64,000 nt of DNA from Pocillopora verrucosa (Eukaryota; Cnidaria; Anthozoa; Scleractinia; Pocilloporidae): assembly GCF_036669915.1 (NCBI RefSeq), contig NC_089325.1, positions 5,192,900 to 5,256,899 on the forward strand, read 5' to 3'. Positions 3,294 to 59,555 of this stretch are shown here, piece by piece. The position numbers and the translations under genes are program-made. Each line of letters opens with the position of its first letter. Position 1 is the stretch's first letter. The notes beneath the pieces were generated by a model. The model did no database searches. It saw only the letters and a list, made by a program, of their open reading frames with translations, and had not been told where the DNA came from.

Positions 3294-6200
3294 ATGGTTT
3301 ACAACATGTTTTGGTTATCATGTTTGCTATTCACAGTTACTGTGAGAGGTGAGGGAGCCTTGTGTTGTTGGTTATTTGCACGCTTCTCTTCTTTAGGATG
3401 CAGAATTCCAGCTTTGAATGCCTTGGGCACGACAAGTTCGAAATGGCTCGTACGATCGCGATAAATTTTTCCATGTCCGATACATTTTCTATAGTTTCAT
3501 AGTTTTTGGGATAGCTTGAAGAAGGAATGTGTGTAGCGTTTGCCAATCGTCATGAATGAAATATTCGATTACTCAGCATCTTTGCATGAAAAAAAGTATA
3601 CTTCTCATAGTGATCTCCTGACTTGTTGAATTAAGCCGCATTGTATATCAACTGAAGAGAAGAATTTAACCATTTTTATAATTTTGCTTGTAGGGGAGAT
3701 TGTCCTGAATCCAGACGGCAGTATTACTTTGCCAACTGAAAATATCACTATATCTGGAGACCAAAGCGACTTAATCTTGACAATTAATATCACCCTCCCA
3801 AATGACACCGTTTCGGTTGAAAATGTCATGGTGTTCGCCTTCTCTGATGATGATAATGGGGGTCGCCTCATTTCTCGTCCTGTGAATACTTCTGGCACCA
3901 CCCAAGCTTCTCCAGAATCGGAGATGGTGAGCAGATTCAAGCTAGAGACGGCCAATGTTACTCTGGCCTCTCAACTTACCAAAAACTCTACCACAAATCG
4001 GTTTAAAGTTCGAGCAATGTTTAAAATTGCTCTGTCTTGTTCGACGCTTTACCGGCAGTCATATGTGATAAGAAAGATCGTTTTCGTCGTCACTTCTTGC
4101 GGTAAAGATGATCGCCAAAATGAGCAACAGTACTTGATTTTGTACTCGAAGTCAGGTGAGATTAAGTTTAGTTCAGTTGTGTTCCTTGTTTAGTAAGCTC
4201 AGTCGCGAGCAGTGCACCCGATAATAACTAATTTCTTCAATTATAATATACATAAAAAAAATTATGCGCATTTGAATGGCTGCAAAGTTTTAAGACGAGT
4301 GAAAAGTTGTAACACGAGTGTTAAATGAAATGCCTGCTATCAGTACCTTTTAAATTAAGAGGTTCTGTTGGGTTCTCCTCAGTGAACTTGGAGTTTATTT
4401 TTGGTTATTGAAAGTTATTTCAGTGAGAATGAAGCTAAGTGAGAAGTTTTGAACAACTTATTCTACGCTAGCTGTATGACAAGAACTATCCTGCCTAGAA
4501 GGTTTATTCTTTTCCATGTCAGTGAAATTTTTTTTGTGAATGCTGTTTTTTTTTTCTTACAGTGGTTCCATCCCCAATAAGCACTATAGTAGCTGGTGCC
4601 TCTTCAAGCATTCAAAACACTGGTAGGCCACTAGCTACAGGTATGATAAAATTGTGTTATATGGATTTAATCTCTATTATATTACAACCTCTGACTAGTA
4701 TTATAGAGAGTCTATATAGTCAATGAATACATTCCTGGTTTTCATTCAGTTTTTTGACACTAACCCAGACAGAAGGGTGATGAAAATTGTTGATTGGGAA
4801 ATTATCAACCCAAGAATTTTGAATGATGACTTACAAGAAACATGTGGGAGATGGGTTGGTCAATCAGTGGTTAGTCTGGTTGGTTATTGTGTTGTGCTCT
4901 TGGGAAATTTTCCCAAGACCACAAAACACTTTATTCTCATGGTGTCTTCTGGTAATGTCTCCATCCATCCAGGTGTATAAATGGGTACATTCAAACCTTG
5001 ATTATCCAAACCTTGATAATCCAGATTTTTGAATAATCTAGACTTGGTTCTTAAGGTCCCATTTTTTAATGAATATTAATTGGCCCCACTGGAGATCTGT
5101 AAGTTCTACTTTTTCCAATCAAACAAAGCAGTTGTGAAACAATTTGGCTCTATTCTTTAAATTTATGCAGCTTCAAAGAATGATAGAATTAGTTAGTGTA
5201 ATTAACAGGATTGTTAGGGGTTGTATACTTTTAAAGGTTTTAAGTCCTTTTTGTTATCTGTTGTATGAGCATGTGCATATATATTTAACTAAAAACCTCA
5301 AAAGTTTTTTTTTTTCTTGAATATTTCTGATCAATATATTTTTTCCTGTTTAACAGAAACAGGATTTTTAGTGAGGCCTACATCTACAAGTGTTTACATT
5401 ACTTTTCCATCTGCTAGCTTAACAACCTCAGGTAGAGTTTATTGTAAAATTAATCTAGTCATTAGGTTAAATAAGTCAGGCCTGCTATCGATAATCCAGA
5501 TTTTTCAGTCATTTGCATTTGTCAATCATCTGGGACTGGCCTCTTTTGTCCCATTTTTTGTAGATATGAATAAGTCATTGCAATGGAATAGCATTTTATC
5601 CAGGGGATGATCCAGTAGTTGTGCCATTATACCCCAAGTCACTCCATGCTAAGGAAATGGGGATAAGCTCCAGCTGGAATTATGGGTCACTGGCTCAAGT
5701 ACAGACTTTACCTTTTTTTTACTCAAAATAAACACTAAATTCTCAGGGCTTATAATCATGTAAACCAACAAGCTAGGTGGCGTGGTAAGGAAATGAGGGT
5801 CGGGAAACTTTTGAATTTTTGCAAAATTAATCTAGTCATTAGTTAAATAACAGACCTGTCATCAGTACTTTTTAAATTGAGAAGTTCTGTTGGGTTCTCC
5901 TCAGTGAACTTGGAGTTTATTTTAGGTTATTGAAAGTTATTTCAGTGAGGATCAAGCTTAGTGAGAAGTTTCTAAAACTTGATTCACACTAGCTGTATGA
6001 CAAGAATTATCCTACTTAGAATATCTACTCTTTTCCATGTAAGTGAATTTTTTTGCAAATGTTGTTTTTTTTCTTACAGTGGTTCCAACCTCAGTACCCA
6101 CTAAAGTTGCTCAAAAGACTGATGGGCCACCAGCCACAGGTATGTATTTTTAATATGAAAACAAGTTTTTCCCATCAAACAGAACATAATATAATGAAGC

Positions 6201-6857
6201 AATGTTGAGGCTATTTAATTAATGGGTCTTCAAAGATTGATAGAATTAGCAACACGCAAACACTGTAGCAGCTTAAAACAAACTATAATTTGCATCAACA
6301 TTTTTGGTCGCAACATGTTGTATGTAAGCTTTTGTTAATAGCTTCATGAAAATGCTCTTGGCAGATGTCAACAATGATGGACAATGATTGAATGATGTGT
6401 GCTCCATTTTGTTTTTGGCTCATCGATATTCATATTTTCAATTGTCTGAACTCTTGATTATACATCCCAATCCCCATGTGTCTGAATAATCAAGGCTTGA
6501 CTGTAATGGAATAATCTCTTACTGATAAAATTCTGGGGCGGTCACACTTCAGTGGACTTTAATTTCTCCCTGTATTTTTAGTTATTGTCTAAAAGTGATT
6601 AAATAATCCTGCAAACAATCCCATGAACATGTAACTAAGTTTTTATTTCATGTCATTTCTTACTTTCAGGAACAAGTAACACAAATGTGGCCATCATCGC
6701 TGTTCCCACTGTGTTTGTAGCAGTCATAACCTCAGCAGTCATAGCCTCATTTATGTATTACCACAAAAGAAAGAGCAGTAAAATTTATGACATTCAGACA
6801 GCTGAGCGACCAGTATCTACAAATAGTGAAGAAAATTATGTGGAATCCTCTGTTTAG
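3294..6857 (+). CDS. R1: type I membrane receptor-like gene
   Basis: Six exons predicted by eye: 3294-3348, 3694-4155, 4563-4640, 5357-5431, 6080-6139, 6670-6857. They join to 918 nt, 305 aa, with AG/GT borders and phase 1 throughout. Exon 1 (18 codons) starts with M and a hydrophobic FWLSCLLFTVTV core and is a signal peptide. Exon 2 (154 aa) is the ectodomain: beta-rich in appearance, several N-glycosylation sites (NITI, NITL, NTS, NVT, NST) and exactly two cysteines (SCSTLY, TSCGKD). I do not recognise its family. Exons 3-5 are short Ser/Thr/Pro-rich stalks. Exon 6 encodes about 23 hydrophobic residues, a basic stop-transfer YYHKRKSSK, and a tail of about 35 residues with two tyrosines but no clear ITIM or ITAM. 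Likely a surface protein; the ligand is unknown. R4 is its closest relative here. Confidence 0.8.
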
Positions 6858-8542: not shown

Positions 8543-9430
8543 TTGACGAGAATTTATGAAATCGATTCTCTCAGTCATGAAAAGCACCAAGCATACAGGT
8601 TCTCTAGGATTCAAGAGGCGGTCGGACTGCTCAGCGACACTCTTCAGCTACTGCGCGGGAATGAAAATTATATCAGATGTGAAGTTGCCAATATATCAAA
8701 AATCCTCAATGGCCCACAGGGTAACGTGGTCTAAGACTGCTGCGTCAATTAAAATGCTTCATGGCCTCGAAAACCTCCAGCAAGTCTCAAAATTATACCG
8801 ATATGATGCTCTTAACCAGTTGAGTTACTTGACACAAGATATGAAGAATATTCACTCGGTTGTGCATCATAAAGATAAACTTTTCACGATGTTAGACTAC
8901 CCAAGGAACTTTGGAAATGTAACCTAAGAGGGCTTAATGAGGAAACCCATTGGGCGGTATACTATCTAACAGATCCAAATACTTGGTATCCTGTGCCCGG
9001 ACGTGCCAGGATCCTGTCGGCCATACCAGCAATAGTCAACCGTTACCACCTGTGCCGATGGCACCACAGAGCACACAGAAGATGGGGGACTGGGCGTAAA
9101 AATTTGTTGCAGCAGTGCGTCAGCTCTCTGTCAGACAGGAAACAACGGTGGCAAGAGTTGGAACTTCCCATCGTATCTCTATCAGAGAGAATTCAGCTAG
9201 TCGAACCGGTCAGCCTCGAACGCTCTGACTTCGTGGAGCGGCAAAAAAAAATATCGGGAACACGACGCCGCAGAGGAAGATGGAATATTGGAGTCGACAT
9301 GTTCCCCGAGTGATGATGACATTCCGTCTTTGGAGCGAGAGGCTGATTTGTACCTCGGAAGAGGTTCCCACTTCGGAAGACATATTCGCTCCAACAGCAG
9401 AATGAGGGGGACATGGGGGGTTCTGAATAC
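8543..9430 (+). pseudogene. Cnidarian repeated protein, copy 1, frameshifted
   Basis: Pieces in different frames align with the minus-strand copy at 9942-10830. They read ILNGPQGNVV (8543-8734), YDALNQLSYL and NIHSVVHHKDKLFTMLDY (8712-8927), NTWYPVP, AAVRQLSVRQETTVAR (about 9105-9160), and an acidic end with SDDDIP and LYLGRGSHFGR (to about 9400). At least three frameshifts are needed, so it is dead. From memory, this is a multi-copy cnidarian family of unknown function, possibly with an NHL-like N-terminal part. Confidence 0.5.
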
Positions 9431-9930
9431 CGCAACACCGCAAACAAAATAAATATTATCGACACACCGACACCGCGAGATTTACCTGGTCTAAATGTTT
9501 CTAAACCGTTACTTCTAATTTTCAAACACAAGAAACACATTCCTACCGCATTCTCCGCATGTAAAATTCCTTGCTGTCACTTCATTATAAATGAAGTGTA
9601 GGCGACACTAAGATGAGCCAAAGAAGTTACCGCTGCCAAGTGATACGCCAGTGTCTCCGTTAGGTCGATCCTGCGTCCTCTGAAGTTAGAATATACTCCC
9701 ACAAAAAGTAAAGTTCACAGTTTGCTTCCTTTGATGTCACGACTTTCTTTGTCTAGTATTTTTGTTTCAAATCCATTTTATATTTCCTAAAAAAAGTTAT
9801 ACAGTTGGTCATCGTGGTGACTAACACTAGCAGCTAAGTTTATCGTTTGTTTATCGATGTGGGCAACTATGATGTCAACTGGTTGTGCTTCATCTCATAA
9901 AGAACCGGGCGGTCCGCTGTCATTCATTGG
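9430..9930. other. Repeat-flank sequence
   Basis: The part at 9410-9560 recurs at about 13139-13345 ('gttctgaatac' ... 'accgtgatttt'), next to another fragment of the same protein family. The remainder shows nothing recognisable. Confidence 0.4.
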
Positions 9931-9941
9931 CTTAACAACAG

Positions 9942-10830
9942 CTATGATTGGCATATAAACTCAGGGAGAATCCCATGCTTTGCCATGGTCGTCTCTTGGC
10001 GCACTGTCCGCTGTCGCACTGCTGCTCCATACGCCGACGCCCAATTCCGCATAATATCGCAATTTGCTTTAAACATATCAACGATAGGAAGTGGCTTTAT
10101 CAAAGGGACTTTAGAGAATGGCATTGTCTCCTTTGGTTTTGGGTACCATGACTTCCTACTTGCATGATAAAACGCGGCCCATTGTGTCACCCTCTTAAAT
10201 GATTCTTTCATGGTAAGTTCAAAGGATCTAGCATACTTTATCATGGACATGTTCACCTGCCTGATATGAACAGTGGAATGGAAATTCTTTACGTCCAGTG
10301 TCATACAACTCAAGAAATTGGTTGAACTTTAATTAAATGGTTGCAAATTGCTGTACAATCTCTGCAGCCCCCATTCAAGAAGTGCAACTGAGGCCACGGT
10401 CCTGGCGGAAACATGACCCTGAGGTCCATTAATAGCGCTTGTAATGCCAGTACTCATTCGGATCTCGTTGGTGTTCCTCTCTAGTAGCTCTTTACACTGG
10501 CGGACAAGGGAGAGCGCTTCATCTGCAGACTTAACAGAGTAACCTGTTCCTTTACAATGGATGGAAAAGGTGTCAAAAAGCTGACCAACGGAGTTGAGAA
10601 ATTTGGCGTACTCGACCATTTTAGTGCAGATCTTGATGGAATTTGTCTGGGCATCACAGGTGTAAATGACCCTTTCAGACTCCGTGCAGATGCCCATCGG
10701 TTGTCGAAACTGGCAATCCTGTACTTTCCCATCCACACTACCTTCCTCTCTTTCGCAGCCGGCAAAAACTTCGACCTCTCCATTTGTCTTGATCGTTCAC
10801 AGAGATGCCCGGTTTAACGACTCTAAAAGC
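9942..10830 (-). pseudogene. Cnidarian repeated protein, copy 2, one in-frame stop
   Basis: On the minus strand the same frame runs from about 10797 to 9942, broken by one TAA at 10329-10331. It reads EVEVFAG, GSVDGKVQDC, QPMGICTES, VIYTCDAQTNSIKI (NHL/beta-propeller-like), INGPQGHVSARTV, LQPFN, the stop, then CMTLDVKNFHSTVH, WAAFYHA, WYPKP, AVRQRTVRQETTMAK and LPEF. It is much less decayed than copy 1 and convergent with it. The stop could be real or an assembly error. Function is unknown. Confidence 0.5.
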
Positions 10831-11035: not shown

Positions 11036-12360
11036 GTATTCCCTCCCTTTGTCCACCCATAGTCCCCTTACGGAGGCCAAGAAAATGCCTTCAACGACAT
11101 CAAAATACCCCGGTTTAAACTTCAATCCCTTTTTACTTAGCCTACGCGTAGACATGTACCCTCCCCCGATGGTGAATCGGAATCGAGGGAACCCCTTGGT
11201 TCACCTTAGCAGGGGAGGGTACGGCTACACAATTACTCTAATTGTGCGTTTGAGCCCGCGTTATTGATCGCATACCTATGACGAACTTTTCATCATGCAC
11301 AGGTAGACAAAGCGCAAATTTATGTCCGAGGGGCTATGTATACCACATTTTTACACCTTGTTACACCTGAGTGCGCAATTTAGTGGACTTGGCTGTGCCA
11401 AAATGTATATTCTCCATCCATGGAGTGAGTGGGTAGAGAAGGAAGCTAAGCCTGGCCAATTCTTCCGAGGAAGTCCATGAAGTAAGTTATTATCTCAAGC
11501 GTATGTTTCTTTGGCGTTAACGTTTGGCGTTATCGTTTGGCGCCTACCGAACGCTTTTTCGGACTCCTCTGCTCCCACCGAAGGGAGCAGTGGGCCCTAT
11601 AGGGTTGACTTTAGGGAAAATTGCTGAGTCGTGATCATATACAGATCTTCGGATAGCCACCCAGAACACGACGTGTTTGATCCATTCAGTCCAGACGAGG
11701 AAAATAATACATCGTGCTTTCGATTCTTCTCATTTATTTTCTAACTCTTCGGTAAGTCTGTTAAACAGGTCTTTTTCTTCCTCAGACGCTTGCTTGACAG
11801 ACAATTAATTGTTACTAAGAAGAAGTTCAACCGACATTGCCGAAATTTAATTTTGGTAGAAATATTTCTTCATCATGTCTCGTTTTCATTATTAATTAAG
11901 CATTTAGTTTACTACCTATTCGTTTTCGAAAGAAATGTCGAAGGGTCTTGGATGGTTTTGTTGATGAGATCTAGAAGGATACGGTGGCTTTGCCCAATAT
12001 TTTAACACAATAAGGCAATCAAGGAACAGTGCCATTTAATTTTCTTAGCTATCAAGTCGCGAATTTCTCATTTCGGCTCTCTAGTTCTTCCATCGATTAG
12101 CCGTCGATTGCGATAACAAAGAGACGGTGAAAAAAGCAATAGAGAACTGGGACTGAATGACAAAACTGCTACGGGTAGGGTGGCCTGGGTTAAACAAAGA
12201 TACTTTGTTCAATTTACCCGTTCACAAAATTCTACTTATCTTATCCAAGTTCAAATATTTGGGAAGTTATACTGCTATCTTTCCCCAAGAGTTTTCAAGA
12301 TCTGAGAAAGGATGGAAGCTTTCCTATAATTGGTTTTAACTTTATTTTTTCTTGAGACTA
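11036..12360 (+). promoter_or_regulatory. Conserved upstream block, copy 2 (R2)
   Basis: Collinear with 1815-3230: 'tttgtccacccatagtcccc' at the start, the cgcaatttagtggacttg landmark at about 11370, and gaaaggatggaagctttcc at about 12305. Similarity stops at about 12350, before the place where a signal exon would be expected. R2 therefore either lost that exon or uses another one. Confidence 0.5.
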
Positions 12361-12923
12361 CATGGGCATTGTACTGACACTATGACTTATGTAATTCTTA
12401 AAGAACATTTCACACTAGTTAGTGCCCATATCTTGCACGGTCAAATCTATGGAGCTTACACAGCATTTCCTATCTGTCACTGAAGGCTTGAAAAATTTTA
12501 TCCAGAAATGCTTTGGTGGGATTTTCCCATATGTTTGCTAATTCTAGCAATAGGTAAGAAAACTGTGTGCTTTGGGGTTTATGTTTCAGATGAGTCAGAT
12601 GGAAGATACCATCCTTTTCTCACCTCGCTTCACTCAGAACAGGAATAGTTGCTTCAGGATGAACTTTTCACACAAAATTTGCAATGGTCGACTGTTTATC
12701 ACATTTCCATGGCAGAAGCCAAATGAATGGTCTGCAAAATCTGCGCCCTCTAGGGTAGTTTAGCCATTTTTCATCTGCTTATGAAGCCTGACAACTGAAT
12801 GACTCACTGCCCATATAATAGGCTATAAAATGCACTTTCCCACTCATAAAACAGCAAGTTGGCATCGGTTTACTGAGATTTAAGAATGAATAGTCACATT
12901 TTATTATCTTTTTTTTTCCTTAG

Positions 12924-15900
12924 GCGAAACGGAGCAATGGAATAGCACTGGAATGTTCCATGATACTGACAATGGTAAGTCAACAAGAGTTTAATTGCAT
13001 TAAGGAGATTTGTCTTAAAGCTTAAAGTGATGGTAGGATGGTAGTCTCTTACTTGTAGTCTTTTACTCAGAAAGATGTGAAAAATTTTGAAGAGAAGTAA
13101 TTTTGGAACAAAGAGAAATTTGATTTCTTTGGTAGATTTTGTTCATTGAGGGAGACATGGGGAGTTCTGAATACAGAAACACTGCAAACAAAATAGAACA
13201 AACACTGCATCACCCCAAGAAATATTATCAACACACCCACACCGTGATTTTGTTTCTGGATTTACTTGGTGTAAGTGGTTTTTGGAAAAAAAAAAAACTC
13301 AAAACCATTACTTCTACATTTCAAATATAAGAAATATGGTAAATCCAAAGGATCTAGCATTCTTCATCATAAACATGTTAACTTGCGTGAGAGTCAGACT
13401 GTATTCAACTTTTTGCATGGGGTCGAATACAGTAACTACTAAAAGTAGATTGATCGATAAATAACTACTTTTTTCACAGAAGTTTTCTGCCTCTCCAAAA
13501 ATCATCTCATGAACGTGCTGGTGCTAGCCAGCGAAAGTGATTGTCGTTATCAAATTTCCCATGGTTCTAATAATTTTTTGGTTGCACAATGACCACAATA
13601 TTGTGACTCTTTTGAGGACTCTTTGGGAATGCTCCAAGCAGAAATGGAAGGTCAAAGGTTCTCAGGGCATGTACAGACCTTTTCCGCCCTGTATAGACTG
13701 ACCTCTAGACTGTGATGACTTATTCAAGTTATGAGGGTATAAAGATTATGCCAACATTTTTGTAAATTTATCAAATGGTTTCCTTTAACTTTGAAAGGCT
13801 CTTTTCATTTCTCTTGACTCAGCATCTGAATTTACTCTTGTTGCCATAGTTCTCACCACCTTTTCATATGTGATACCAGCATGTTGCTTTTACCTTGATG
13901 AATATCTCATTGAGGAGATTTCTGGGGGCATATTTTGACAGAGAAAAGAATAAATCAATTTTCTGTTTTTTCATCAACATACTTCTTTGTCACTTTGACT
14001 TGGTGGTCAGTTGGATTGTAAGGATTGATTATCTTTTGATTGTTCATATCTTTATTAGTTTCTTTAATTGACTGGTCAGAATTGCTCAGGTCTATTGAGA
14101 AACTAATTTTTTATTAGTTTTTTCTTGTGACAGCATTCGTTGCCATTTCTCATGTCACATCACTCATGAATTCATGTCCAGGATCAACCTGAAGAACTTT
14201 TGGCCATCTCAGTGGTCCACACCTATAAGCCTTTGAGACCTCAGTAGAATCTTTTGAGGTGAGAGGTTCAGCAGCTGTGAATCTGTTTGCAACATCAACA
14301 ACTGTCAATGCATAATTGAAGACTTTCTTACTTCTTGGGAGCCTCTCATGGGGAAGGAAATGAAGATCAGCTTAATGAACTGCATTTGGAGATTCAACAT
14401 CAAAAGTTATTCTCCGGGTATACTTTGTGGCAGGCAAGTCTGCTTGATGGCTTGCCACATCAACCAAAGCTTTGCAACGTTCTCAGAAACTCTGGCTTCT
14501 TTAACCACCTTTTTCACAGCTAGCAATCTGATCCAAAAGCCTTTAGGACTAAAGTAGATACTTAAAAGCTTTCTTTCCATTTTACTTTGTGTTCACAAGA
14601 AACAACTGGTGGCCAATCCCAAAGCAAAGCCATTCCTCTGATGTAGATCATCTACCTTGCTTTTGTTGAAATCTCAGCTTTTAGAAGTCAGAAAGTTGTG
14701 GTTCCCTCAGATCAAGTTCTTGATTATGCACCTTGTTGTACAGCTTTAAAGCATAATCTGTGTTCACAAAATTCTGGTTTGGCTGCTCCTTGACTCTGTC
14801 ATTAGTTGCGATCCAATTGACAATTTTTGTTCGATTTTCTTGATACTTTTCATAAGCTGATTGGTACTCCTCCACAGCGAAATCATGCCTCTTCTTCTCT
14901 TCTTCAGCACTATTCTGGTCTCCACTCAAATACTTTGCAAGATGGCTTCCACCAACAAAGGCAGTCACATTGATGAGTGCTCCTCCAATCATTATTGCTA
15001 TGCTTGCCATTTTATTTATCTGCATCATTATTTTCGCAAATTGATGACAATTATTCATTATGAAACTTTTGATGAAGTTCTGCCTCTATATGCTGCTCCA
15101 CAGTCTGGCCAAAGGCTTTACTGATATTGAATATTAAGACAGTCTCAATGATTGCACAGACTGTTGCTAACTTAATTACATTCATTGTAAATCAGCAGAA
15201 CATTTTTAAGATTGCAAAATCTTTTTATGTTCAAGGTACTGTCTTACTGTGATTTTTGCAGCAAACTTCATGTAGCTCATGAGATTTGAACACAGATCAG
15301 AAGTCATCAGCTCCTTGATGACTCTCTTTGCAACTCATCCAATTCCAGCAGCCAATCCAGTCAATGTAGCTGAATTGTTCAATGTTTTTCACTTTTGATT
15401 GATCTCAGGAGTATGAGTGACAATGGTTTTCTTGAAAGTGGGTTGAGATTGGTGAATATGATAGAAAGAGTTCAGCTTGCACTTAACAGGAAGGCATTAG
15501 GTTCAAGTAATGTGAAATGTCACATCTTTATCCTCCCGGATGCCCAGCTCAGCATCATCAATTGCAAGCTTGAAAGTGTGACTTATTAATGCGATAACTT
15601 GTCATTTACAAAGACACTGTTTTGACAGAAGAACAAATCAAGGCAAGCCATGAGGTTGAGGTCAAGGCCAGGCACAGAGCGGCACACCACGACTTATTCA
15701 TTACAAGATACAACATTGCTGTTGATCCTGTTGAATGATTAAATTTGTTCTGGTACTGAAGATTGACAAGTTGATATGTCATAATTTTTTTGAAAAAAAT
15801 TTTGATATGAGATTTCTGTGTTTGTCTCAGTGATAGTAGATAATTAATATGTAATGGCACATTCTGGCTCAATACAAAACCAAGGATAAAACATGACTTT

Positions 15901-18900
15901 GGGTAGAGCTCAAAACAATGTTTATCCGTGTTTTTGTATTGAGCCAGAATGTGTCATTACATAATTATCTACTAATCCAGTATGGCACTGGGAACTGTAG
16001 AAAAGGCTATTCGTTGAACTGTATACATTGCTGGTCAGGTAACAAGACTTCTCCCTGTATTTACATTAGATTTATGCCCTGCTGTGCCATTTCCTCGCTT
16101 TCACGCCAAGATCCAAAAGGAGATCATATTGTAAAAATCTATCCCAATCAAAATGGTAGCATTAAAGTGGTATATCTTAAATTACTCTTTTCATTGGCAG
16201 GCAGTACAGACGCACATCAACATGACATGGATCAATGTGGTGAGTGATGCACTTGTAGTAAACTTTATTAGATTATATTTAGATGACAACATTAAAACAG
16301 TTTGCTAAATTAACATTATTTCTAAAGTTGGTACGGTATACTAGTTGTAGGTCTGTTCCACAATCTGAGCACTTACATTTGAAAAGAATGCTCTCTGAAA
16401 GTATTACAGTGGGGTACACCTTCTCACTACAGGTTTTTTTTTTGCCTCTTAAGTCAATTGGTGTTAATTAGACCTAGGTGTGAGCAATACTTGTATATGA
16501 CAGAGCTCTCACCCAAGTTGATTATCTGGCAAAGAGTGTGTCACACCACAGGCATCGCCTACTGAAAGGGGGGGGGGGGGGTTATGGGGGCATGCTCTGC
16601 CAAAAATTAGTGTAAGCTAAGATGTGCATTCCTTTATTCTGTATGAGAATTTCCACTTGTGGAAAGTGTTCGAAGCAAGTAGAAATGGAACAAGGAGTAA
16701 ATTATAATTAGAAGGTTAATTAATTCTGTAGGCACTTACTGGTAACTAAAGTAGAAGTTTGCTATCTCAAAATCAACTGTTTTAATCAGAAACCTTAAAT
16801 GGGTGAGAAATGTGAGTGTGAGAGCATAAGATTGAATTTGTTCGAGTGTCTCAGTCTCACAATCAATAAATAAGACTTGGAGCTCTGATGTAGGTACTCT
16901 GTGGTCTCTTGAAAGGACTCAATATGAGTAAGTAGACAAAGACTTTGGAAAATAGTTGATTTACTGGCCAGTGAAAAATTGTTTGCATGATCTCTTTCTA
17001 ATTTTTTTTATGGCTTGTGGGGTTGAAAGTTAGTATAATTGTGACCATAGTAAAAGGTTGATAATGTTTATCACTCCACTATTGAGTTTAGATGGACTTC
17101 AAAATACTGCATTTTAAAATTATCTCAATAGTCAGGTATCTTGAGAGGATACTATCTTCTAACTAATTAATTTATCAGGAATGTGGATTATTTAAAAAGG
17201 ATTGATGAAATTATGTTTTTAAAAAAAAAATGTTTATCTTCTTTAGTTTCAAAAGAACACATCTATGTCAAAGAGGGGCAATCAGCCCTAATGGTTTGGA
17301 GGAGAACATCTGGTGGTGAAGAGCTACGTGGCAACCGCCTTGTGGTAAATTCACAAGTCATTGCATTCTTGCCCAGACATTCCGTAAACATGAGTTGTAG
17401 CACATTTATAAAAGATCCAAGTCTGGAGAAATTCTGCCACAAGAGATTAGAATTCTTCAGCAACGCAGCAACTATTCTCGTAAAGTTAAGAAATCTTTCT
17501 AGAGATGAACATTGGGACTTCACTCTGACACATGTGTTGGGGAGCTCATCACCATGTAATCCTCAAGACATCAAAATTGTGAGAGGTAGGTGACTGAAAG
17601 TTTAGTGGAAAGTGATGATAACAGCCTTGATTATGAATTAAAGACAAATTTGTACTATGGATGGTCATGCAATATCAGCATGTACACTCATTATTGAGTT
17701 AAGTAAAAGATGAGAGCTAAAGAGAAAAACCTGGTCCACCCTGATGCCTGCTAATTTTCTATAAAAATGTGCTTCTACAGAAGAGTATGACTGTTTTTTC
17801 TATCTCTTCACCTCTGCTTTTTTCCATGAAAATTTGATTATAATGAAGTGCAGTTGGAAGATCCAAAAGGGTCAGATGTCAGGAAGCAAACAAGTCTGCT
17901 TCCCAAAATAGATTACTTTAGATTATTTGCAGATCATAATGTACAAAATCTTGACACTTTTCCACCTTAACCGAGTTTGTTTATTATTTGCTTGTTTCTT
18001 TGATTTTTCTTGCAGTCATTGCACCTTCCCCTGTAGTGTTAAGTACTGTTCAGCAGTTGCTAACAATACTGTCAGGAAACTGATCTCAAGTATGCTAAAA
18101 TTTTTTTGTTTCAAAATCATCGCTTAATATCGGGAGTGATCATCATATGGGCTCTCCTCACAATTTTAAAAAAGGGGTAATGGCATACTGATAACTTTTA
18201 TTCTCATGACAAACAAAGTAAAGCCTCGTAAGGAAACAAGAGTCAGCAAATTTTTGTATTTTCTTATTTCCCTCCACTCCAGTATTTCTAAATAATTTGT
18301 ATAATTATTTTAAATAAGTTATCTATGAGAAAAAAGTTTGGCCTTAACTTCAAGTAATCAGAGAAGAGAGGATAGGGGCACATCTAAGAGGTAGTGCTTA
18401 TTAATTATCAATGGCAAAGGGGAGAAATAGTGAAAAAGAAATACAGTTGTGATTACCAGCATTTTTTGATAATCCAGACTTGCCCCTCATGGTCCCATTT
18501 TTTTCTTGAATATTAATTGGTCACACTGGAGATCTGTAACCACATTTTTCCCATCAAACAAAGCAGTTGTGCTGTAACAATTTGACTCTATTCTTTAAAT
18601 TAGTCCAACTTCAAAGAATGATAGAATTAGTTAGTGTAATTGATAGGATTATTAAGGATTACTCTCTAAGGTTTAAAGTCCTCTTTGTTATCTGTTGTAT
18701 GGAAATTTGCATAGTTATTTAACTAGTAATTGCATAGGGTTAGTTTCTGATCAATTTCTTTCCTCTTGTTTAACAGAAACAACAGTTTCAGTGAGGCCTA
18801 TGTCTTCAAGTGCTCACTTCAACAGTCCATCTTGTAGCTCAACAACCTTAGGTAGAGTTTATTGAAAAACATTAATCTAGTCATTGGGTTAGATAACAAG

Positions 18901-40800: not shown

Positions 40801-40892
40801 ATCAGGGGTGATTCTGTAAGGAGTAATTTGATGCTGGTCACTCTCAGGGGTCAGAGTTAAAATGTTACATATATATATATATACACATACAT

Positions 40893-40962
<70 letters not shown>

Positions 40963-48456: not shown

Positions 48457-51400
48457 TTAAACCATTTCTTTAGCAGTTCCTGTAGTTCCAGATTTTTTTC
48501 CCTTGCAATGTGAAAGATAACACCGATACGAAATCAATGCAATCAGAATGACAACAATGATTGTAGCAGAAATAGCCCATGCGATAACGGCATGATTTGT
48601 GTTATCTGCTCCTGCAAAAGAAGAAAAAGAAAGTTAAAGAATGACAAGTACAATTAATGATTAAAAGAAGTACCGGTAATGATTAAGATTTTATAAATGA
48701 TTGTGTTCAACCTGGTTAACTTTTTTAGGATACATTAAGAGAGATTCACATTAGAGAAAAGCACTCCAGATGAACTTTCAGCTAAATTAATAAGCATTAC
48801 ATACATCATGCATGTGTTGATTAAAGGACTGAGTGAGTGACTGACAAATTGATAGATTTTTCAAATTAATAATTAAAAGCATAATTCATGAGAATTTCAA
48901 ATATCTTTTGAACACAAGAACCCAAAATTTGACATGGTTTATGTCTACTTGAAAAAAAAAACTACTAACAGTACCCAAGTGCATATTAATTTAAGATATA
49001 CATGTAGCTACCTCATGTTGTATAGTAGCTTAGTAGTAAACTAAGTGAAATTAAATGTGTGAATCAATTTGCTGATGCACTGAATTTAAATTTCAAACCC
49101 AATATGATGGAGCTTAAGCTTCACACTCCATCTTCTTTTTGTTAACCATTAGGTACCTAAATTTAATCCTTAATTTTTCATCCCAGCTGCATGAATGATG
49201 CCTTTTTACCTTGAGAACCTGTACTGGTTGTAACTGTTGTAGCCTGTGTTATCTTTGGTTTACCTGCAATAAGGAAAATGAGAAGTCTGTGGCATGCATG
49301 CTATAGTAAGTAAAAAAAGAAAGAGTCATACAAGCCTTATGAGATTCTGGCTGCAGTGAAACCTCGCACCAGTCAAGGCATTGAGTGGGATGAATCATAA
49401 CTATATCATAATTATGTGACTCTTGTTGTCATTTTTATATTTAGAACAAATTAAAGCAAGAAAAACTGTATAATAAACAGTGTGCTAAATTTACCTCACA
49501 AAGAAAGTTTTTTCAGCAACTAAGACACTATTTGTAAGTTAATTATATTCTTCTAGAGTATTTCCTTATCACATACACCGTTTTACCTGAAGAAACCTGT
49601 TCTGTAGGGCCTGAGTCTGTCTTAACAGTTGTCACCTTTGTTGGCTCTGGCTTATCTGCAATGATGAAAAAGCAAGTTTGTGTCATCACTGTTTATACAT
49701 AAAGTTACAATGTAGCTGTTCACCTTTTTAGTAAACAGATACAAAAGTTCAAGTTGGAAGTTATATGATTCTACCATATGAAAATGTCCAAACCTAAAGC
49801 AATGAAGGTTATTTTTAATAACACAAATTCCTTATCCTATATTCTAATTTTTTTCTTCACTGTGATATATGAGCCCCAATTTACTTGGTTGGACAATCAC
49901 ATTTCAGTTGCACAATCACTAAATTTAGCACAGCATTAATTTCTCAGGTCACTGTCAGGGCCACAGTCACCAAGCTTGCACAAACCTTAAATACCATTTT
50001 TGAGGTATTCAATAAATAGCTACATGCACCAAAGGATGCTCTTTAGATATGTACCCTTGGCTGACTGAGATATATGCACATCCTGAGGTATTTTATTTAA
50101 AACAATGCAAGAGGCAACCAGGATATTCTGAAATCAAGTAAATTAACCCATTAACTCCCAAGATCTGATTGTTAATTCTCCCCTCTAGCTGCTACACATT
50201 TTCTTGTAAATTGGTTATGAAAAATGTTAAATTGTAAATTGGTTATGAGAATTTGGTGTTCAATCAAGGTAACATCTTGTACCTGATATGTTCAAGTATT
50301 CTCACTACCTGTTTGCTGGATAATGTATGGATATTATGGGGAGAAGTTACATGTTAATCACTTCTAGGAGTTAAAGTGACTTCACCTTCAACAGTCAGTA
50401 CAAAACTCTTCAACGGTTGGTCTGTAGTACAATTGTGGTTAGATCCTAGGCAGTAAGGATATAACTTGTAATAGCCCTCCATTAACTTGGTTACCGCTCT
50501 TAGGGTGATATTTAGTGTGTTATCTCCTGAATGTCTAAGAAGGTAATTTTCTTTGCACTCAGGCACCTCAATGTAACAAGTTCCACTACCATCTTCTCCT
50601 TTTGAGAGCTTGATCAGGCGCAGTAAAGGAAAGCCTTTACCGAGGTATGTGTATGCAGCCTGTTGATTGTTAACTGAGACGTTGACCATTATGGTCTTTG
50701 TTCCACCTACAGGAACTGTTGAAGAAAAAAGTATATCCAAATAAAATGTCATATTTATCATACACTTATACACTTCTTGAAAACCTAGGCAACTAAAAAG
50801 GATATTGAAACCTATGTTGTTATTTTAACCTCAGTTTGTACCCAAACATTAGAAGCTGCCTTTAAGTTGTTAGAGAATGAGTTAGTAACTTACCATTAGC
50901 TATAGGTCTAGAACAGGGTGGGAAATTTAGGCTTTCGACACTGTCAGCAGAGTCACTGGGAGTTTAATTCTACGTCAAAAGTGACTCCCTCTTTAGGCCT
51001 TGTTTTGGTTGATAATGTCCTTGTGAATGCAATGAGGGACTGATGTTTAAGAGCCAAAAACATGCAAGTCAGTCAATAGGAAAACTATAAACAGAAATAT
51101 ATTTTTTCACTTGCCATAGTAATTTGCAACACTCGGGTTAATAGCTCGTCCACATGTTGGTGCAGCTGTAAATTAAATGAAATATTGTGATTCCGGGGTC
51201 ACTTGCAGTAAAAAGTATTTTCACTTTTTCAAGAAGTCTTAAAATCCGGCCCTTTGAAGAGTTGCCATGATGTAGCCTTCTTTCAAGATCCTATTGTTCC
51301 GCTTTTGAGCTTCTAGTTATAAACCACAGGATTATGGCAATAAATTAGATTGTACCCTGCCTATCAGTCAAAGAGACAACCCCGTTATGGAAGATAGCAC

Positions 51401-51810
51401 TTCGTCTAATGTGCAAACAAAGGTAACGTGTTCCATTGCGCAGGCCCAATCGTGAAAAAAGAATCTACAATCACGTGACAGGAAATGCGAGCATTTACTG
51501 CGGTCGACCGAAACAATACATTGGCGAAACGGTTCGTTGGCCTCATTCATGTCGCACCGATTTCAAAGCTTAAATGAAGCGAAATCATAATTAATTGAAT
51601 CGATCTTTTTAGTCAGGATGGGCGTTGGTCCTGTCCAGTTTCGTGACTCTGCGATAATGATTAATGAGTCAGCAAAATTAGAAGACCACGCGGGTTTGTT
51701 CCTCACACGAAACGCCGAAACTAGCATGTGTTTTTGTTACACCCACCTCCATTCATGAGGATCATCCAAAATACAAGGCAAAACGTCATCTTGGGTGTGT
51801 ATTGGTCCAT
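48457..51810 (-). CDS. RA: Ig-like type I membrane protein
   Basis: Six exons on the minus strand: 51810-51747, 51165-51115, 50715-50386, 49655-49587, 49263-49210, 48611-48457; 723 nt, 240 aa, every junction phase 1. Exon 1 is a signal peptide (MDQYTPKMTFCLVFWMILMNG). Exon 2 (17 aa) begins AAPTCGRAINP. Exon 3 (110 aa) is the ectodomain with four cysteines (GTCYIEVPEC, YPYC, NHNC), DNTLNITLRAV and MEGYYKLYPYC, like the last strands of an Ig fold; I rate Ig-like as probable. Exons 4-5 are Thr-rich stalks (PTKVTTVKTDS). Exon 6 gives a helix (AISATIIVVILIALISY), CYLSHCKGKK and a short tail without signalling motifs. The intron after exon 2 starts with GC. RB is a clear paralogue, exon for exon. 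Confidence 0.8.
50145..50375 (+). repeat. Dispersed MITE-like repeat in an RA intron
   Basis: Runs from 'ttaacccattaactcccaag' to 'acttctaggagttaaag', ending about 10 bp from the exon 3 donor at 50386. It could influence splicing of that exon. Confidence 0.5.
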
Positions 51811-51998: not shown

Positions 51999-52055
51999 TT
52001 ACCCCTACTCACAGCAAATCGTTCAGAAAGTTATGAGACCGCTTTGCTCGACTCG

Positions 52056-53590
52056 ATGATGGCGGACAGCGCGAGAGTCCTGGATGGAGTTGCATGAAAA
52101 CGAGGTCAGAAACGCCAAGCCATCACGTCGCATTTCACTTCAAACATTTCGACTGTGTAAGTCAGACATCGCTCACGGAAAATGATATACCTGGCGCTTC
52201 TCTTCTTGGAAGAAAATCTGAGGAGTTAAAAATCTCAGAGCTTAAATTTTTTCTGAAAAGTCGTGGAGACGCGGGAAAAGGATTGAAGACAAGAGCAGAA
52301 CTGGTGAAGCGAGTGAATCACTACAGAAGAACAACCAAAGGTAAACAGGTGGTGGATTCAGATCCTCACAAAATATACAGCTGTAGAGAGGAAAAGCAAG
52401 GCATGAGTTCTGAGCCTGACACTGAAAGTAATAAATCAGTACAGTTTCCCAGCTCTGGATGTGGAACTTCACTTGAAAAGGTGCCTATGTTCACGCGGCT
52501 CCAATTTTGAAGTCTGGAAAAGCTATCGCCAATGTGGAACATCACACCTTTCCGACCACATTAGTAAAGGCAAGGCGTTTGTTAGACGACGAATATCTTG
52601 AAGATATTGACTGATTCAGGTACTTTTTCTTAAAAGGGAAGTGTTGCCACAGTTTCAGGAAAAGCGACCTTCATCATAATCTGAGAATTGCCCTAGGTAT
52701 CTTGTCTGGAGTTGTGGTGAATGCCTCTTGTTCGTGTGTGGCAGGAAAAGTTGGATTCTGTAACCACGTATTGGCGATGATATGCGAGGTAGCTTTATTT
52801 TCTTCTACTAACTCTAAAGATCTGAGTGAGGAACAGGATCAACAGTCCTCCGTGGCTTGTACTTCTCAACTCTAGCAGTGGCACAAAAAGGGTGGGGGAA
52901 AGAACATTGTACCTCAGCCAGTGATGGAAGTATAAGTGAGGAAAATAAAGGATACTGCATCCACTTTACGGTATGATATCAAACCTATGGTGCATGATGC
53001 CAGAATGAAAAATACGCATAACCAGGCTATGGAACAAAATCTTCAAGAGCAACTGAGAAAAATTGGTTTGCATTAGGCCTCTCTCAAATGGAGAATGTAC
53101 AGACTGATAAGGCAGGAGTTGGACATGTGGAAACAAAGCTTGGCAAATTTCAAGTTGGCAGTTCCTTATCATGACAAGTTCCACTAAGAGTCACAGTTTG
53201 AGGCCACTGTTTCTATTAACTGCATTTCAAGACTCAATCAAGTAAATAACCAGGCCTTAAGTTATCCCAGGTTTTTTCTCAGGGACATTGACAGAATTCA
53301 ACAGAAGAACACCTGCTAAGGTACTGCCCTATGGACTTGTGGAGTCAAAAGAATGTCCAACTTTAGTGCTACCCTGGATGCACAAGTAGTTGACTTTGGC
53401 TGTGTTGATTACTTTGGGATAGCAGAAGTAAAATGCCTGTATACCAAATATCATGTCATACCCCTTGATGCTTGCACAGATGTAAAGTTCTTCATGGAAC
53501 AGACAGGTGCTTCTGAGTGTAAATTGAAGGAGAAACCACCCCTACTATACCCATGTCTAGGGACATATGGCAGGAGCAAGGAGGTGTGAC
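52056..53590 (+). pseudogene. SAP/SWIM/YqaJ protein gene, decayed
   Basis: Pieces in changing frames give: a start MADSARVLDG at 52059; a SAP-like DNA-binding segment (DIPGASLLGRKSEELKISEL, FLKSRGDAGKGLKTRAELVK; 52190-52340); a SWIM zinc finger (ASCSCVAGKVGFCNH; about 52725-52775) with the C-x-C...C-x-H pattern; and a YqaJ/lambda-exonuclease-type end (FGIAEVKCLY, PLDACTDVKFF; 53410-53510), in which EVK is the catalytic E-x-K. Many stops and frameshifts lie between, so it is dead. From memory, ISL2EU transposons carry such a gene; the DDE gene facing it from the right supports that. Confidence 0.6.
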
Positions 53591-54546: not shown

Positions 54547-55440
54547 TTAGAAACTTACCCCTTTATTCATTTGAAAATTCTTAATCTTGTTGATGACACA
54601 TTTTACATGTATCCTTAAACTTGCAATTTCCTGTTTTTTTAGCACATCTTCTGCAGCCACATATGAAGATGTTCCAAGAAAGGGTGGCAAGTTTAAACTA
54701 ACTCCCAAAGGCAACAAATCCTGAATTGTGAATCCCTTATCTGCCATAACGGAGTCTTGTCATCAAATGGTAGATTTAAAAATCCACTCCTTCTGACAAT
54801 TTCTCGATCAGAGATTGAACCTGTATACAGTTGAATTTGAATGTCACTGCTCCACCAGGAGAAGTACCAATCAAACCCTTTCAAAGTTGTGTGATTTCTG
54901 TATGCACTGAAAAGTTCTCTATTCAATGGCAAGCTGCTTGGTATTTGACATTTAACCTCAGTACAGTCAACTATGACTTGAGTACATTTTGTACTTTACT
55001 TTAAAAGATTCAGACAGTCAATTACTTTTCTGCTGGGCCAAATGTTTATTTAACTTCCATAATTGACCAAGAAAGATTTTCTCCTTACAATATCAATACA
55101 ATAACAAACAGAAAAGTGATGAGAATAAAGAAAAAGATCAATTTGGGAATAATTAGTTGACCTAAAACTAACTTCTCTGAACAAACATTGTAAGAATTGT
55201 ATGGTTGACAATAAGGAGAAGTAAAAATTTGATCTGGGAGTTAAAGGGTTTAATATCCAATCTTGAAGAACAAAATTGAACCTACATTCTAAATATTCTA
55301 CTAACTGTAGATGCTGATACATTAAATAATTGAGCTAGATGGTCCTTTAGGAATCCTTGCCTTAGTCTACACATGACCATAAACAATTCATCAAGGGCCC
55401 TTAAAGATCTAGCTCTCCCCTTTGTTGTTATTAGAATGGC
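54547..55440 (-). pseudogene. DDE transposase (DDE_Tnp_4, ISL2EU-like), decayed
   Basis: The minus strand begins with a helical segment TTKGRARSLRALDELFMVMC, GFLKDHLAQLFNVSAST (55437-55305). After an inserted MITE it continues VDCTEVKCQIPSSLPLNREL, SAYRNHTTLKG, GSISDREIVRRSG (54970-54760). A one-base shift leads to MADKGFTIQDLLPLGV, LNLPPFLG, and IASLRIHVKCVINKIKNF (54747-54560). The first Asp (VDCTE), the second (SISD/MADKG region) and a C-terminal helical E-region are visible in family order. Frameshift plus insertion make it inactive. It converges with the SWIM/YqaJ gene, and together they form one element of about 4 kb. Confidence 0.65.
55050..55255 (-). repeat. Dispersed MITE-like repeat inside the DDE gene
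   Basis: The right end is 'gatctgggagttaaagggtt' and the body includes 'gtaagaattgtatggttgac', as at 44635-44842. It splits the transposase between its N-terminal helical segment and the first catalytic Asp. Confidence 0.6.
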
Positions 55441-56275: not shown

Positions 56276-59200
56276 TCAATGTGAACAGTTTACTAAGGAT
56301 GAGTCAGTCTGTCTTCTAGTACATGCATTCTGACACAATCTTAATATGCGCACCCTGAGATGAGGTTGCACATAAACAACCACTGAAAATATAATCAGGA
56401 TGGCAACTATGATTGTAACAAAAACAGCCCCAATGATGACTTCATGATCTGTGTTTCCTGTACTCACAAAAGAAAAAAAGAGGAAAATTAAAGAATGAAA
56501 AGTACAATTAATGATTTAGAAAAAGTAAAAAATTAAGATTTTATAGGTTATTGTGTGTTCAACTTGGTTAACTTATTAGGATACATTTACGGAGATTCAC
56601 ATGAAAGTAATGCATTCCAGATGAACTTTGAGCTAAATTAATGAGCATTACATACTTCATGCATGTGTTGATTAACGGACTGACCGAGTGACTGACAAAC
56701 TGATAGATTTTCCAATTTAAAAGCTTCATCCATGAGACTTTTAAATATCTTGAAAACAAGAGCCCAAAATTTGACATGCTTTATGTCTATTTAAAAAAAA
56801 ATATAGTACTTGAGTGTATATTAATTTATGATATACATGTAGTCACCTCATGTTTTACAGCAGCTTAGTAGTAAACTAAGTGAAACTACATGTGCGAATT
56901 GATTTTCCGATGGACTGAATTAATTTTATACCCAATATAATGGGGCTTAAGCTTCACACTCCATCTTCTTGTTACCCATTAGATACCTAAATTTAATCAT
57001 TAATTTTTCATTCCAGTAGCTTAAACGATGCCTTTTTACCTTCAGAAACTGGTTCCTTGGAGCCTGAACCTGTAATGGTTGAGGCCTGTGTAGCATTTGG
57101 TTTTCCTGCAATTATGAAAATGGGAAGTCTGTAGCATGCATTCTAATTAAGTAAAAAAAAGGAAAAAGAGTCACACAAGCTTTATGAGAGTCTTACTGCA
57201 GTGAAACCTACAGTCAGTCAAGGCATTGAGTGGAATGAATTCATATTTATATTATAATTATGTGACTTTTGTTGTCATTTTACATTTAGAGCAAATTAAA
57301 GAAAGAAAAACTGCATAATTAACAGCTTACCAATTTGTCTCACAGAAAAAGCTTTCATGGTTAAGACACTAAGTTAATTATTATTCTGCTCGAGCATTTC
57401 CTCATAACATACACCTTTTTACCTGAAGAAACCTGTTCTGTGGGGCTTGAGTCTGTCTCAACAGTTGTCACCTTTGTTGGCTCTAGCTTATCTGCAATGA
57501 TAAAAAAGCATCCCTCAATTAAACTCTGCCTTAATTTCTCAGGCCACTGTCTGGGTCACACTTACAGAGCTCATAAATACCATTTTGAAGTATTCAATAA
57601 ATAGCTACATGCAGACAATTATTATTCTGCTCAAGCATTTCCTCATTAGATACTCTACCATACAAAATTGTCCTAAAACCTAAAGCAATGAAAAGTAATT
57701 TTTATAACATAAATTCCTTATTCTTCTTATGAATATATTTTTTTCTTCCCTGCTGTATATGAGCCACAGTTTATTTGGTTGTACAATCACATTAGTTGCA
57801 CAATCACTCAATTTAATTCAGCCCTAATTTCTCAGGCCATTGCCAGGGCCACACTTACAGAGCTCATAAATACAATTTTGAAGTATTCGATTAATAGTTT
57901 TATGCAGACAAGGATGCTCTTTAGATATGTACCCTAGGCTGACTGAGATAGAAACAAATCCTGAGGTACTTTATTTACAACAATGCAAGAGGCAATCAGA
58001 ATATTCTGAAATCAAGTAAATTAAAGTTTACCTGTAATAATCAGCTTGAAACTCTTCAATAGTTGGTCTGTTGTACAATGGTGGTAAAATCCTACGCAGT
58101 ACAGATATAACCTGTAAAAGCCCTCCATTAGCTTGGTTACCTCTTTTATTGTGATAGTAATAGTTTTATGTCCTGAATGTCTCAGACCATAGTTTTCTTT
58201 GCACTCAGGCACCTCATGGTAACAGGTTCCACTACCAACTTCTCCTTTACGAAGCTTGATCAGGCGAATAACAGGGGAGCCTTTGCCAAGGTAAAGGTAG
58301 TTAGACTTTTGAATTTTAAACGATATGTTCACCGTCATGTTCAGTGTTTCACCTACAGGAACTGTAGAAAAAACCAAATAAAATGTAATATTTGTCATAC
58401 ACTTAAACACTTTTTGAGACCCTGAGTGACTGAAAAGGATATTGAAGCACATACTGTTATTTTAACCTTGGCACATACCCAAACACAATTAGAAGCTGCC
58501 TTGAAGTTGTTAGAAAATGAGTTACTAACTTACTATTAGCTGTAGGTTAAGAACAGGGGTGGGAAATTTGGGCTTTTGACCTTTCAGTAGTCACCATGAG
58601 TTTCTATTAATTCTGAGTCACAAGTGATTCTCTTAGGGTCTTTTTTTTTCTAATAATGTCCCTATGAATGCATCGAAGGACTGATGTTTAAGAGCCAAAA
58701 ACATGCAAATCAGTAAATAGGTAAATTATAAACAGGAATGTAGGTTTCACTTGCCACTAAAAATTTCAACCCTTGGATTGATAGCACCTCCAGTTCCTCC
58801 GCATGTAGGTGCAGCTGTAAATTAAATGAAATAGTGGTTCGAAGGTCAATTGACATAAAAAGTATTTGCGCTTTTTAAAAGTCTTAAAATCCGGCCCTTT
58901 GGAGAGTTGTCATGATGGAAGCTTCTTTGAAAGATCCTACCGTTCCGTTTTTGAGCCGCTAGTCATAAACCATAGGGTTGTGGCAATAAAATAGATTGCA
59001 CTGCCTACACTATCAGGGTGTCGTCCACTCTGTGAAAGGATAACACTCCGATCGTAGATCTGTGTTGAACAAGGGTAACGTGTTTCACTGCGCATGCCCA
59101 GTTGTACGTCATAAGTGAAGCGAAACGAAAGCGAAATGATATAATTCCACAATCACATGACAGAATGATAGGTAATATATTGCGGGCGATTAAAACTTCA

Positions 59201-59555
59201 AAGGCATTGGAAATATGTCTTGTAGGCCTCGTGCACCGATTTCAAAGCTTTACCGAAGTGAAATCATGATTACCTGAAACGATTTTTTTCCTTAGGATGG
59301 GCGTACTAGTTGTCGATCTTGTATAGTTTCGTGCTCTGCGATGACGTATCCACATCAGCTTTTTAGCTGCCATTTATCGACCTACGTGACAAATAAAGTA
59401 CGATGAGCGAGTAGGCAAAGTAACAAGATCGTGAGGGATTGTTCCACACAGAAACACCAAAAATAGAGCGCTTCTTTGTTACACCTACCTCCGTCCATAA
59501 ATAACATCCAAAATAAAAGAAGAGAAAACGTGATCTTAGGCGTATAGTCATCCAT
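56276..59555 (-). CDS. RB: Ig-like type I membrane protein, paralogue of RA
   Basis: Exons 59555-59489, 58814-58755, 58361-58032, 57491-57423, 57105-57040, 56457-56276; 774 nt, 257 aa, all phase 1. Exon 1: MDDYTPKITFSLLLFWMLFM, a signal peptide. Exon 2: AAPTCGGTGGAINPRVEIF. Exon 3 has the same length as in RA (110 aa) and the same four cysteines (GTCYHEVPEC, YLYC, YHHC), with many surface substitutions. Stalks: EPTKVTTVETDSSPTEQVS and KPNATQASTITGSG. Exon 6: helix VIIGAVFVTIIVAILIIFSV, then a tail longer than and unlike that of RA (VRILRLCQNACTRRQTDSS). The GC donor after exon 2 is shared with RA. Ligand unknown. Confidence 0.8.

Follow-up and report, generated by a model that had tools for sequence, protein, structure and literature searches.

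What is the gene cluster that lies between positions 3294 and 59555 of a 64,000-nucleotide stretch of contig C14 of the stony coral Pocillopora verrucosa (C14:5192900-5256899, hereafter the window), and what might its products do? A preliminary description had reported clustered genes for type I receptor-like proteins, built from phase 1-1 exons, and regarded the cluster as a candidate allorecognition or immune complex. We rebuilt the exon chains of R1, R4, RA and RB from splice sites, completed a fifth gene, R2, and searched the whole genome (353.4 Mb, 52 contigs); on C14, the sequence read comprised only the window, positions 5332000-5361999 and the loci of matches. The receptor cluster is real, confirming the earlier observation. 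R1-type and RA-type genes were found clustered together at two places, on C14 (~161 kb) and on C13 (37 kb), and, from the sequence, we lean towards a recombining complex of single-pass receptors for contact or immune recognition.

All five chains are open to the stop codon, and every intron is in phase 1. For R1, R4, RA and RB, with six exons each, the frame lengths given in the preliminary description were reproduced exactly, as were its outermost bases (3294 and 59555), and R2 could be completed with eight exons. Introns of these first four chains are GT-AG, except for the second intron of RA and RB, which is GC-AG. Since phase 1-1 exons are usual among shuffled extracellular modules of animals, that feature of the cluster is ordinary. 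The five genes are as follows.

3294-6857, plus strand: R1 gene, 918-nt open frame; signal exon 3294-3348, ectodomain exon 3694-4155, stalk exons 4563-4640, 5357-5431 and 6080-6139, membrane exon 6670-6857 (tail ending in ESSV)
12508-22238, plus strand: R2 gene, 876-nt open frame; signal exon 12508-12553, ectodomain exon 17247-17585, stalk exons 18777-18851, 19002-19079, 19784-19858, 20407-20481 and 21023-21091, membrane exon 22120-22238 (short tail; the weakest exon)
37807-43945, plus strand: R4 gene, 1125-nt open frame; signal exon 37807-37867, ectodomain exon 38263-38724, fibronectin III exon 40477-40767, stalk exons 41363-41437 and 41690-41767, membrane exon 43788-43945 (tail ending in ESTV)
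48457-51810, minus strand: RA gene, 723-nt open frame; signal exon 51810-51747, second exon 51165-51115, ectodomain exon 50715-50386, stalk exons 49655-49587 and 49263-49210, membrane exon 48611-48457
56276-59555, minus strand: RB gene, 774-nt open frame; signal exon 59555-59489, second exon 58814-58755, ectodomain exon 58361-58032, stalk exons 57491-57423 and 57105-57040, membrane exon 56457-56276

Each of the five proteins has a hydrophobic N-terminus and one membrane helix; Ser, Thr and Pro account for 37-47% of the 60 residues preceding the helix, and the cytoplasmic tails extend 17-37 residues beyond the membrane window. The common plan of signal, ectodomain, Ser/Thr/Pro stalk and membrane exons that had been proposed is borne out by the exon chains together with hydropathy, which also indicate the type I orientation. 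A second extracellular module occurs only in R4, whose fibronectin III exon matched PF00041 (Pfam, E 3.3e-10). The C-termini of R1 and R4 have what we take to be the shape of a PDZ ligand; a C13 relative has no such ending. In a whole-gene alignment of 3 kb, both boundaries are common to RA and RB in five of six exons, the acceptor of the membrane exon mapping 6 bases off, and in R1 and R4 the two ectodomain boundaries and the signal-exon donor coincide, but not the start codon. Because these boundaries are shared, the gene models go beyond chance frames. The signal and membrane exons of R2 were placed by frame, splice signals and hydropathy alone, with no homologous support, and its membrane exon had no match at the locus of a relative on C5.

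The cluster also contains relics, and copies with stops lie beside intact ones. Five models and one relic, R3, had been described previously; the five models stand, and two membrane-exon relics were found.

34221-34370, plus strand: relic membrane exon with an in-frame TAG (tblastn E 1.9 against the RA membrane exon)
42684-42863, plus strand: decayed extra membrane exon in R4 with an in-frame TAG (E 1.7e-9 against the R1 membrane exon)

The first of the two is possibly a part of R3. This relic resembles the membrane exon of the R2-type gene on C5 and is enclosed by a segment, 34055-34421, that matches at the DNA level (74%, E 2.6e-65) the piece of the C5 locus in which that exon is situated. 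Units like GCCGACAGGT, arranged in both orientations, form an array at 43134-43380, between the decayed and the intact R4 membrane exons.

The presence of three ectodomain types in one cluster, claimed previously, held in profile comparison: the R1 type (R1, R4), the R2 type and the RA type (RA, RB) are mutually unmatched, with hhalign probabilities of 0.2-0.5%. An E-F strand motif looks alike by eye in R2 and RA, and common ancestry of these two was considered; since hhalign gave only 0.4%, three types were retained. Relatives of all three were found outside the window, at sites on C14, C13, C5, C3 and C11. The R1 ectodomain search gave nine rows, six of them credible, namely R1, R4, a C3 copy with a stop and three copies on C13 (34-36% identical); when one of the C13 copies served as query, these six places came back and none other. 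Three C5 rows (E 0.06-0.26, two stops each) were discarded, as was, as a family member, a membrane-exon match at C13:11483939 (E 0.22). The RA ectodomain search gave 11 rows, eight strong and three weak. The strong rows are RA, RB, four further C14 copies reaching as far as 5357592, two of them with stops, and two on C13. At 5348683 on C14, a further RA-type gene has a signal exon, a second exon, an ectodomain exon, two stalk exons and a membrane exon. Two weak rows are distant RA-type relatives on C11 (hhalign 95%, E 3.4e-8), and the reciprocal search from them gave eight rows, two self and six RA-type; the RA ectodomain search also gave a C10 row at E 0.04. The C11 copies (G000:C11:12013841 and 12123633) are identical in protein and 110 kb apart, and may stem from a segmental duplication of very recent date or from duplication in the assembly. 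The R2 ectodomain has a single relative, on C5 (57%). Scans of viral contigs for the R1 type (profile A1) and the RA type (A2) gave 61 and 14 pattern matches, none confirmed as relatives.

Because RA-type copies reach 5357592, the C14 cluster measures ~161 kb from R1 onwards and extends 100 kb past the window end. Within the window, R1, R2 and R4 lie on the plus strand and RA and RB on the minus strand, so that R4 and RA are convergent. On C13, the two classes are interleaved within 37 kb in the order RA-type plus (10932264), R1-type minus (10939000), R1-type minus (10940476), RA-type plus (10958307) and R1-type minus (10969175); C13 has signal exons as well, and a membrane exon that resembles that of R1. 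A strict rule of facing R1-type and RA-type neighbours was rejected: three of four unlike pairs converge and one, on C13, diverges, and two of the six RA-type copies on C14 are on the plus strand, like R1 and R4, with the other four on minus. As one of the four pairs is divergent, the data describe linkage and no strict orientation rule. Synonymous divergence (dS) between C14 and C13 copies is near saturation: it could be estimated for five of six R1-type pairs (1.35-1.78) and for six of eight RA-type pairs (1.57-2.45). These values are consistent with, and do not prove, a single old duplication of a two-class locus.

How could different ectodomains come to stand on similar stalks? R2 is a mosaic, because its pieces match the R1 and C5 loci separately: the ectodomain and the last stalk exon are of C5 type, the 5' flank and the rest of the stalk of R1 type. 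Two R1-related segments are involved.

2191-3163, plus strand: 5' flank of R1, 80% identical to the R2 5' flank at 11356-12346
18461-20828, plus strand: R1-type stalk cassette within R2, 78-86% identical to pieces of 4483-5772

The R2 ectodomain region (16052-17607) matches C5 at 77% and the region of the last stalk exon (20944-21233) at 79-87%, a block further 3', from 22815, matching as well; the C5 gene has three copies of the R2-like last stalk exon type. In the stalk-cassette search, 40 of 53 candidates were scored and 43 rows obtained. Among the matches listed, those to the R1 stalk block longer than ~210 bases are found in this cluster only. The 35 rows outside the cluster all fall at query 503-711 and were not taken as cassette copies, because that interval behaves as a dispersed repeat. 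In the C13 RA-type pair, noncoding divergence is 7.2% of 3132 sites upstream of the ectodomain versus 15.5% of 1544 sites downstream, and the change between the two levels falls close to the 5' edge of that exon. Sequence exchange around the ectodomain exon is therefore suggested at two places, in R2 and in the C13 RA-type pair. Repeated non-receptor blocks at 21195-29225 and 34492-37701, parts of which also lie downstream of the C5 R2-type gene, mark older duplication rounds.

The ectodomain exon was then compared by Fisher's test with those noncoding stretches of its own gene pair that align well, using collinear BLAST blocks for six pairs. These blocks replaced a whole-segment MAFFT comparison of 13 pairs, in which intron values were inflated where homology ends; pairs with RD, an RD pseudogene pair and three C13 R1-type pairs (flanks poorly aligned) were left out. 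Differences per site are given below with dN/Ki, the ratio of nonsynonymous to noncoding divergence.

RA/RB: ectodomain 64/313, noncoding 353/2204, p 0.051; dN/Ki 1.23
RA/RC: ectodomain 64/330, noncoding 333/2427, p 0.0074; dN/Ki 1.20
RB/RC: ectodomain 72/320, noncoding 310/2048, p 0.0014; dN/Ki 1.43
R2/C5: ectodomain 76/339, noncoding 181/1165, p 0.004; dN/Ki 1.40 (bootstrap 1.01-1.88)
C13d/C13e: ectodomain 77/327, noncoding 466/4676, p 9e-12; dN/Ki 2.25 (bootstrap 1.64-2.99)
R1/R4: ectodomain 68/462, noncoding 72/474, p 0.86; dN/Ki 0.66

Divergence of the ectodomain exon exceeded that of noncoding DNA at p<0.01 in four of the five RA- or R2-type pairs, three of which (RA/RB, RA/RC and RB/RC) share genes, and the bootstrap interval of dN/Ki lay above 1 only for R2/C5 and C13d/C13e. 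In the R1/R4 ectodomain, dN was 0.112 and dS 0.364, giving a dN/dS of 0.31 (bootstrap 0.18-0.60); purifying selection on the ectodomains, which the preliminary description had named as a sign against its own reading, is thus present for the R1 type. The firmer part of these results is that RA and R2 ectodomains appear to change faster than the R1/R4 ectodomain; positive selection is a weaker reading of the same divergences.

Structure prediction covered the R1 and RA types, whose ectodomains are probably immunoglobulin (Ig)-like beta sandwiches. AlphaFold modelling, as had been proposed, gave a beta sandwich with Ig V-type matches for both, in models of low confidence. In Foldseek searches against the PDB (50 rows listed per model, classed by title), three of the 1072 matches of the R1 model reached E <=0.001, Epstein-Barr gp350 twice and CD96 once, and the titles of 24 of its listed rows denote Ig V-type domains, including those of CD96, CRIg, nectin-1, 2B4, CD48, T-cell receptor (TCR) and antibody; template modelling (TM) scores by query against CD96, CRIg, nectin-1 and 2B4 were 0.27-0.49. 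For the RA model, nearly all listed rows are antibody, nanobody or TCR complexes by title, not by chain (TM 0.52-0.68), and the top row is a bacterial transporter entry. Because the PDB holds very many Ig V domains, this likeness is suggestive only. In sequence searches of the PDB, the RA type drew mostly Ig proteins (8 of 9 and 5 of 6 rows) at non-significant E values of 0.31-0.87, and no Ig protein is among the matches of the R1 type. The RA type has four invariant cysteines (46, 53, 88 and 95 of the model) and, by eye, the E-F strand motif; the R1 type (A1 profile) has no invariant cysteine. A canonical B-F strand disulphide was found in neither type, the RA type having no invariant cysteine in strand 5-11, where the strand naming is our own reading of a low-confidence model. 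In the Pfam scans, no curated Ig family profile matched the ectodomains, and Glucodextran_C matched one of five R1-type members at E 0.01.

Taken together, these findings suggest that the stony coral has a lineage-specific complex of cell-surface receptors that cross the membrane once, each of which would present one beta-sandwich domain on a Ser/Thr/Pro stalk with almost no cytoplasmic tail. Such a complex would evolve as genes duplicate in tandem and decay and as phase 1-1 exons recombine, so that different ectodomains may be placed on a shared stalk cassette, as seen in R2. The R1-type and RA-type classes are linked at two chromosomal places; RA and R2 ectodomains diverge beyond their own noncoding DNA with frames staying open and, in RA, the four cysteines kept, the R1/R4 ectodomain being constrained. 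The proteins would presumably reside at the cell surface and bind a ligand where a cell touches another cell or a microbe; as their own tails are short, they may signal through a partner protein. Their likely job would be contact-dependent recognition, of self and non-self or of microbe and symbiont, in which RA and R2 types would supply the variability. The earlier reading is thereby partly supported, for the cluster, the relics and the likeness in layout to Hydractinia Alr, and it is strengthened by the additional 100 kb of cluster, the paralogous C13 cluster, exon recombination and the fast RA/R2 ectodomains.

Several observations weigh against a recombining recognition complex. The dN/dS was below 1 in all 23 pairs that gave a value (0.21-0.81; 26 pairs in total), and R1/R4 is the single R1-type pair in the noncoding comparison. 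In all six pairs, R1/R4 included, dS is 2.1-4.2 times Ki; since, in addition, local alignment drops the worst-aligned introns, dN/Ki is biased upward. Under a less selective alignment, noncoding Jukes-Cantor divergence rose from 0.180 to 0.229 for RA/RB and from 0.170 to 0.215 for R1/R4, and dN/Ki became ~0.97 and ~0.52, respectively. The C13d/C13e excess is partly due to the recombination step described above for this C13 pair. Pfam scans of all three ectodomain types gave nothing better than E 0.01, and the models have a mean predicted local distance difference test (pLDDT) of 66 for R1 and 63 for RA, with predicted TM scores (pTM) of 0.65 and 0.56. Of the listed R1 rows, 23 are not Ig V-type, including gp350, protocadherins, RET, pilus proteins and parasite antigens or surface proteins, and three are unclear; no PDB match of the RA model reached E <=0.001. 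The tails of RA and RB differ, and the five gene models are known from the genome sequence alone. The divergent neighbour pair on C13 belongs here as well.

How do other explanations fare against these data? Under allorecognition proper, a narrower form of the favoured reading, allelic ectodomains of neighbouring colonies would bind each other, and whether they match would determine if colonies fuse or reject one another, on the pattern of Hydractinia Alr1/Alr2. In line with this idea are the grouping of type I genes with relics, the Ig-like models, the rapid divergence of RA/R2 ectodomains and the exon exchange, but the tails are far shorter than those reported for Alr, four of the five genes have a single ectodomain, the R1/R4 ectodomain is constrained, and the data come from a single assembly; we consider it quite unlikely. 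Innate immune or symbiosis receptors for microbial or algal ligands, whose divergence would reflect an arms race, are a second narrower form, unlikely but deserving somewhat more credit. The fast RA/R2 ectodomains would agree with them, as would the pervasive tandem duplication of coral genomes, in which, according to the excerpted text of PMC10236652, receptors make up most of the amplified families and are probably connected with self/non-self recognition, innate immunity or symbiosis; the Pfam scans, however, gave no known pattern-recognition domain.

Ordinary adhesion or gamete-surface proteins under birth and death, with no role in recognition, would account for the fibronectin III module of R4, the constraint on the R1/R4 ectodomain and a dN/dS below 1 in every pair giving a value, but not for RA/R2 ectodomain exons that exceed noncoding divergence or for mosaic exon exchange, and this receives the least credence of the readings weighed here. 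A bolder version of the favoured reading, to which we attach little probability, is an anthozoan histocompatibility-type complex independent of the hydrozoan Alr design, in which two or three unrelated Ig-like classes on interchangeable stalks, with hardly any signalling tail, would comprise RA/R2 as diversifying determinants and linked R1-type genes as conserved partners. Within the recombining recognition complex that we favour, recognition of self, microbe and symbiont are inseparable with the present data.

The excerpted text of a 2025 perspective in the open-licence literature suggests that the genes for coral self/non-self recognition appear unestablished. The present analysis provides a bounded candidate, a ~161-kb region and a paralogous 37-kb one with variable and constrained ectodomains named, and an association test in colony fusion crosses is therefore direct. 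It also provides an example of ectodomain exchange between receptor genes via phase 1-1 exons.

Other elements were noticed in and around the cluster.

8547-10796, both strands: frames mutually alike by eye, likely a mobile-element gene (no Pfam match at E 0.01 for the four frames scanned)
14681-15085, minus strand: 134-aa frame with a hydrophobic stretch, situated in intron 1 of R2, which is long; a Pfam scan at E 0.01 gave no match
30554-32368, minus strand: piggyBac-type transposase frame of 604 aa without stops (PF13843, E 4.5e-84), between R2 and R4
52037-52875, plus strand: frames between RA and RB with a weak SAP match (E 0.008, below cut-off) and a CxC...CxH pattern that we presume to be SWIM-like, perhaps from a mobile element
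54693-54995, minus strand: DDE_Tnp_4 transposase fragment (E 9.3e-9)
63119-63499: 127-nt unit in three tandem copies, 91-98% identical

Elsewhere in the genome, GFP-like exon arrays lie at G000:C1:28.36-28.79 Mb and 0.67-0.88 Mb, with 74 GFP-family matches, all on C1; none of 14 control genomes matched, a weak control in that the six named ones are prokaryotes. Such GFP-like arrays are in keeping with an anthozoan, for instance a reef coral.

Which known system does the cluster resemble most? V-type Ig domains, such as those of CD96, CRIg, nectin-1, antibodies and TCR V, are similar in the predicted fold of the R1 and RA types and in the E-F motif of RA, but the coral types have no Pfam Ig match, the R1 type has no invariant cysteine, and the invariant cysteines of RA miss the strand expected for the B-strand cysteine. 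Botryllus fester and BHF are likewise recognition loci of a colonial marine animal, belonging to a different phylum and likened here by description. BHF is named in the excerpted text of PMC12018476. The Hydractinia Alr genes, according to the part of PMC11067881 that cites Huene et al. 2022, form clusters of Ig superfamily membrane proteins with likely pseudogenes. Like the coral cluster, they are thus clustered single-pass membrane proteins with likely pseudogenes in a cnidarian host, and the earlier parallel in layout, of clustered type I genes plus relics, is upheld; their Ig-like ectodomains have low mutual identity, and the coral R1 and RA types are predicted, in low-confidence models, to be Ig-like. 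Alr1/Alr2 tails are reported as 200-250 aa in the excerpted text of PMC7563517, as against 17-37 residues in the coral cluster, and Alr proteins are said to contain V-set plus I-set domains (PMC11999971), in contrast to one ectodomain module in four of the five coral genes. Since the coral cluster differs in these two features, we do not file it as Alr. A distant link would be conceivable because a 2026 Podocoryna preprint, in its excerpted text, refers to ARC-gene homology among cnidarians with a citation of a manuscript in preparation (PMC13119343). Judged by analogy, Hydractinia Alr appears to be the closest known layout, and the likeness is one of layout.

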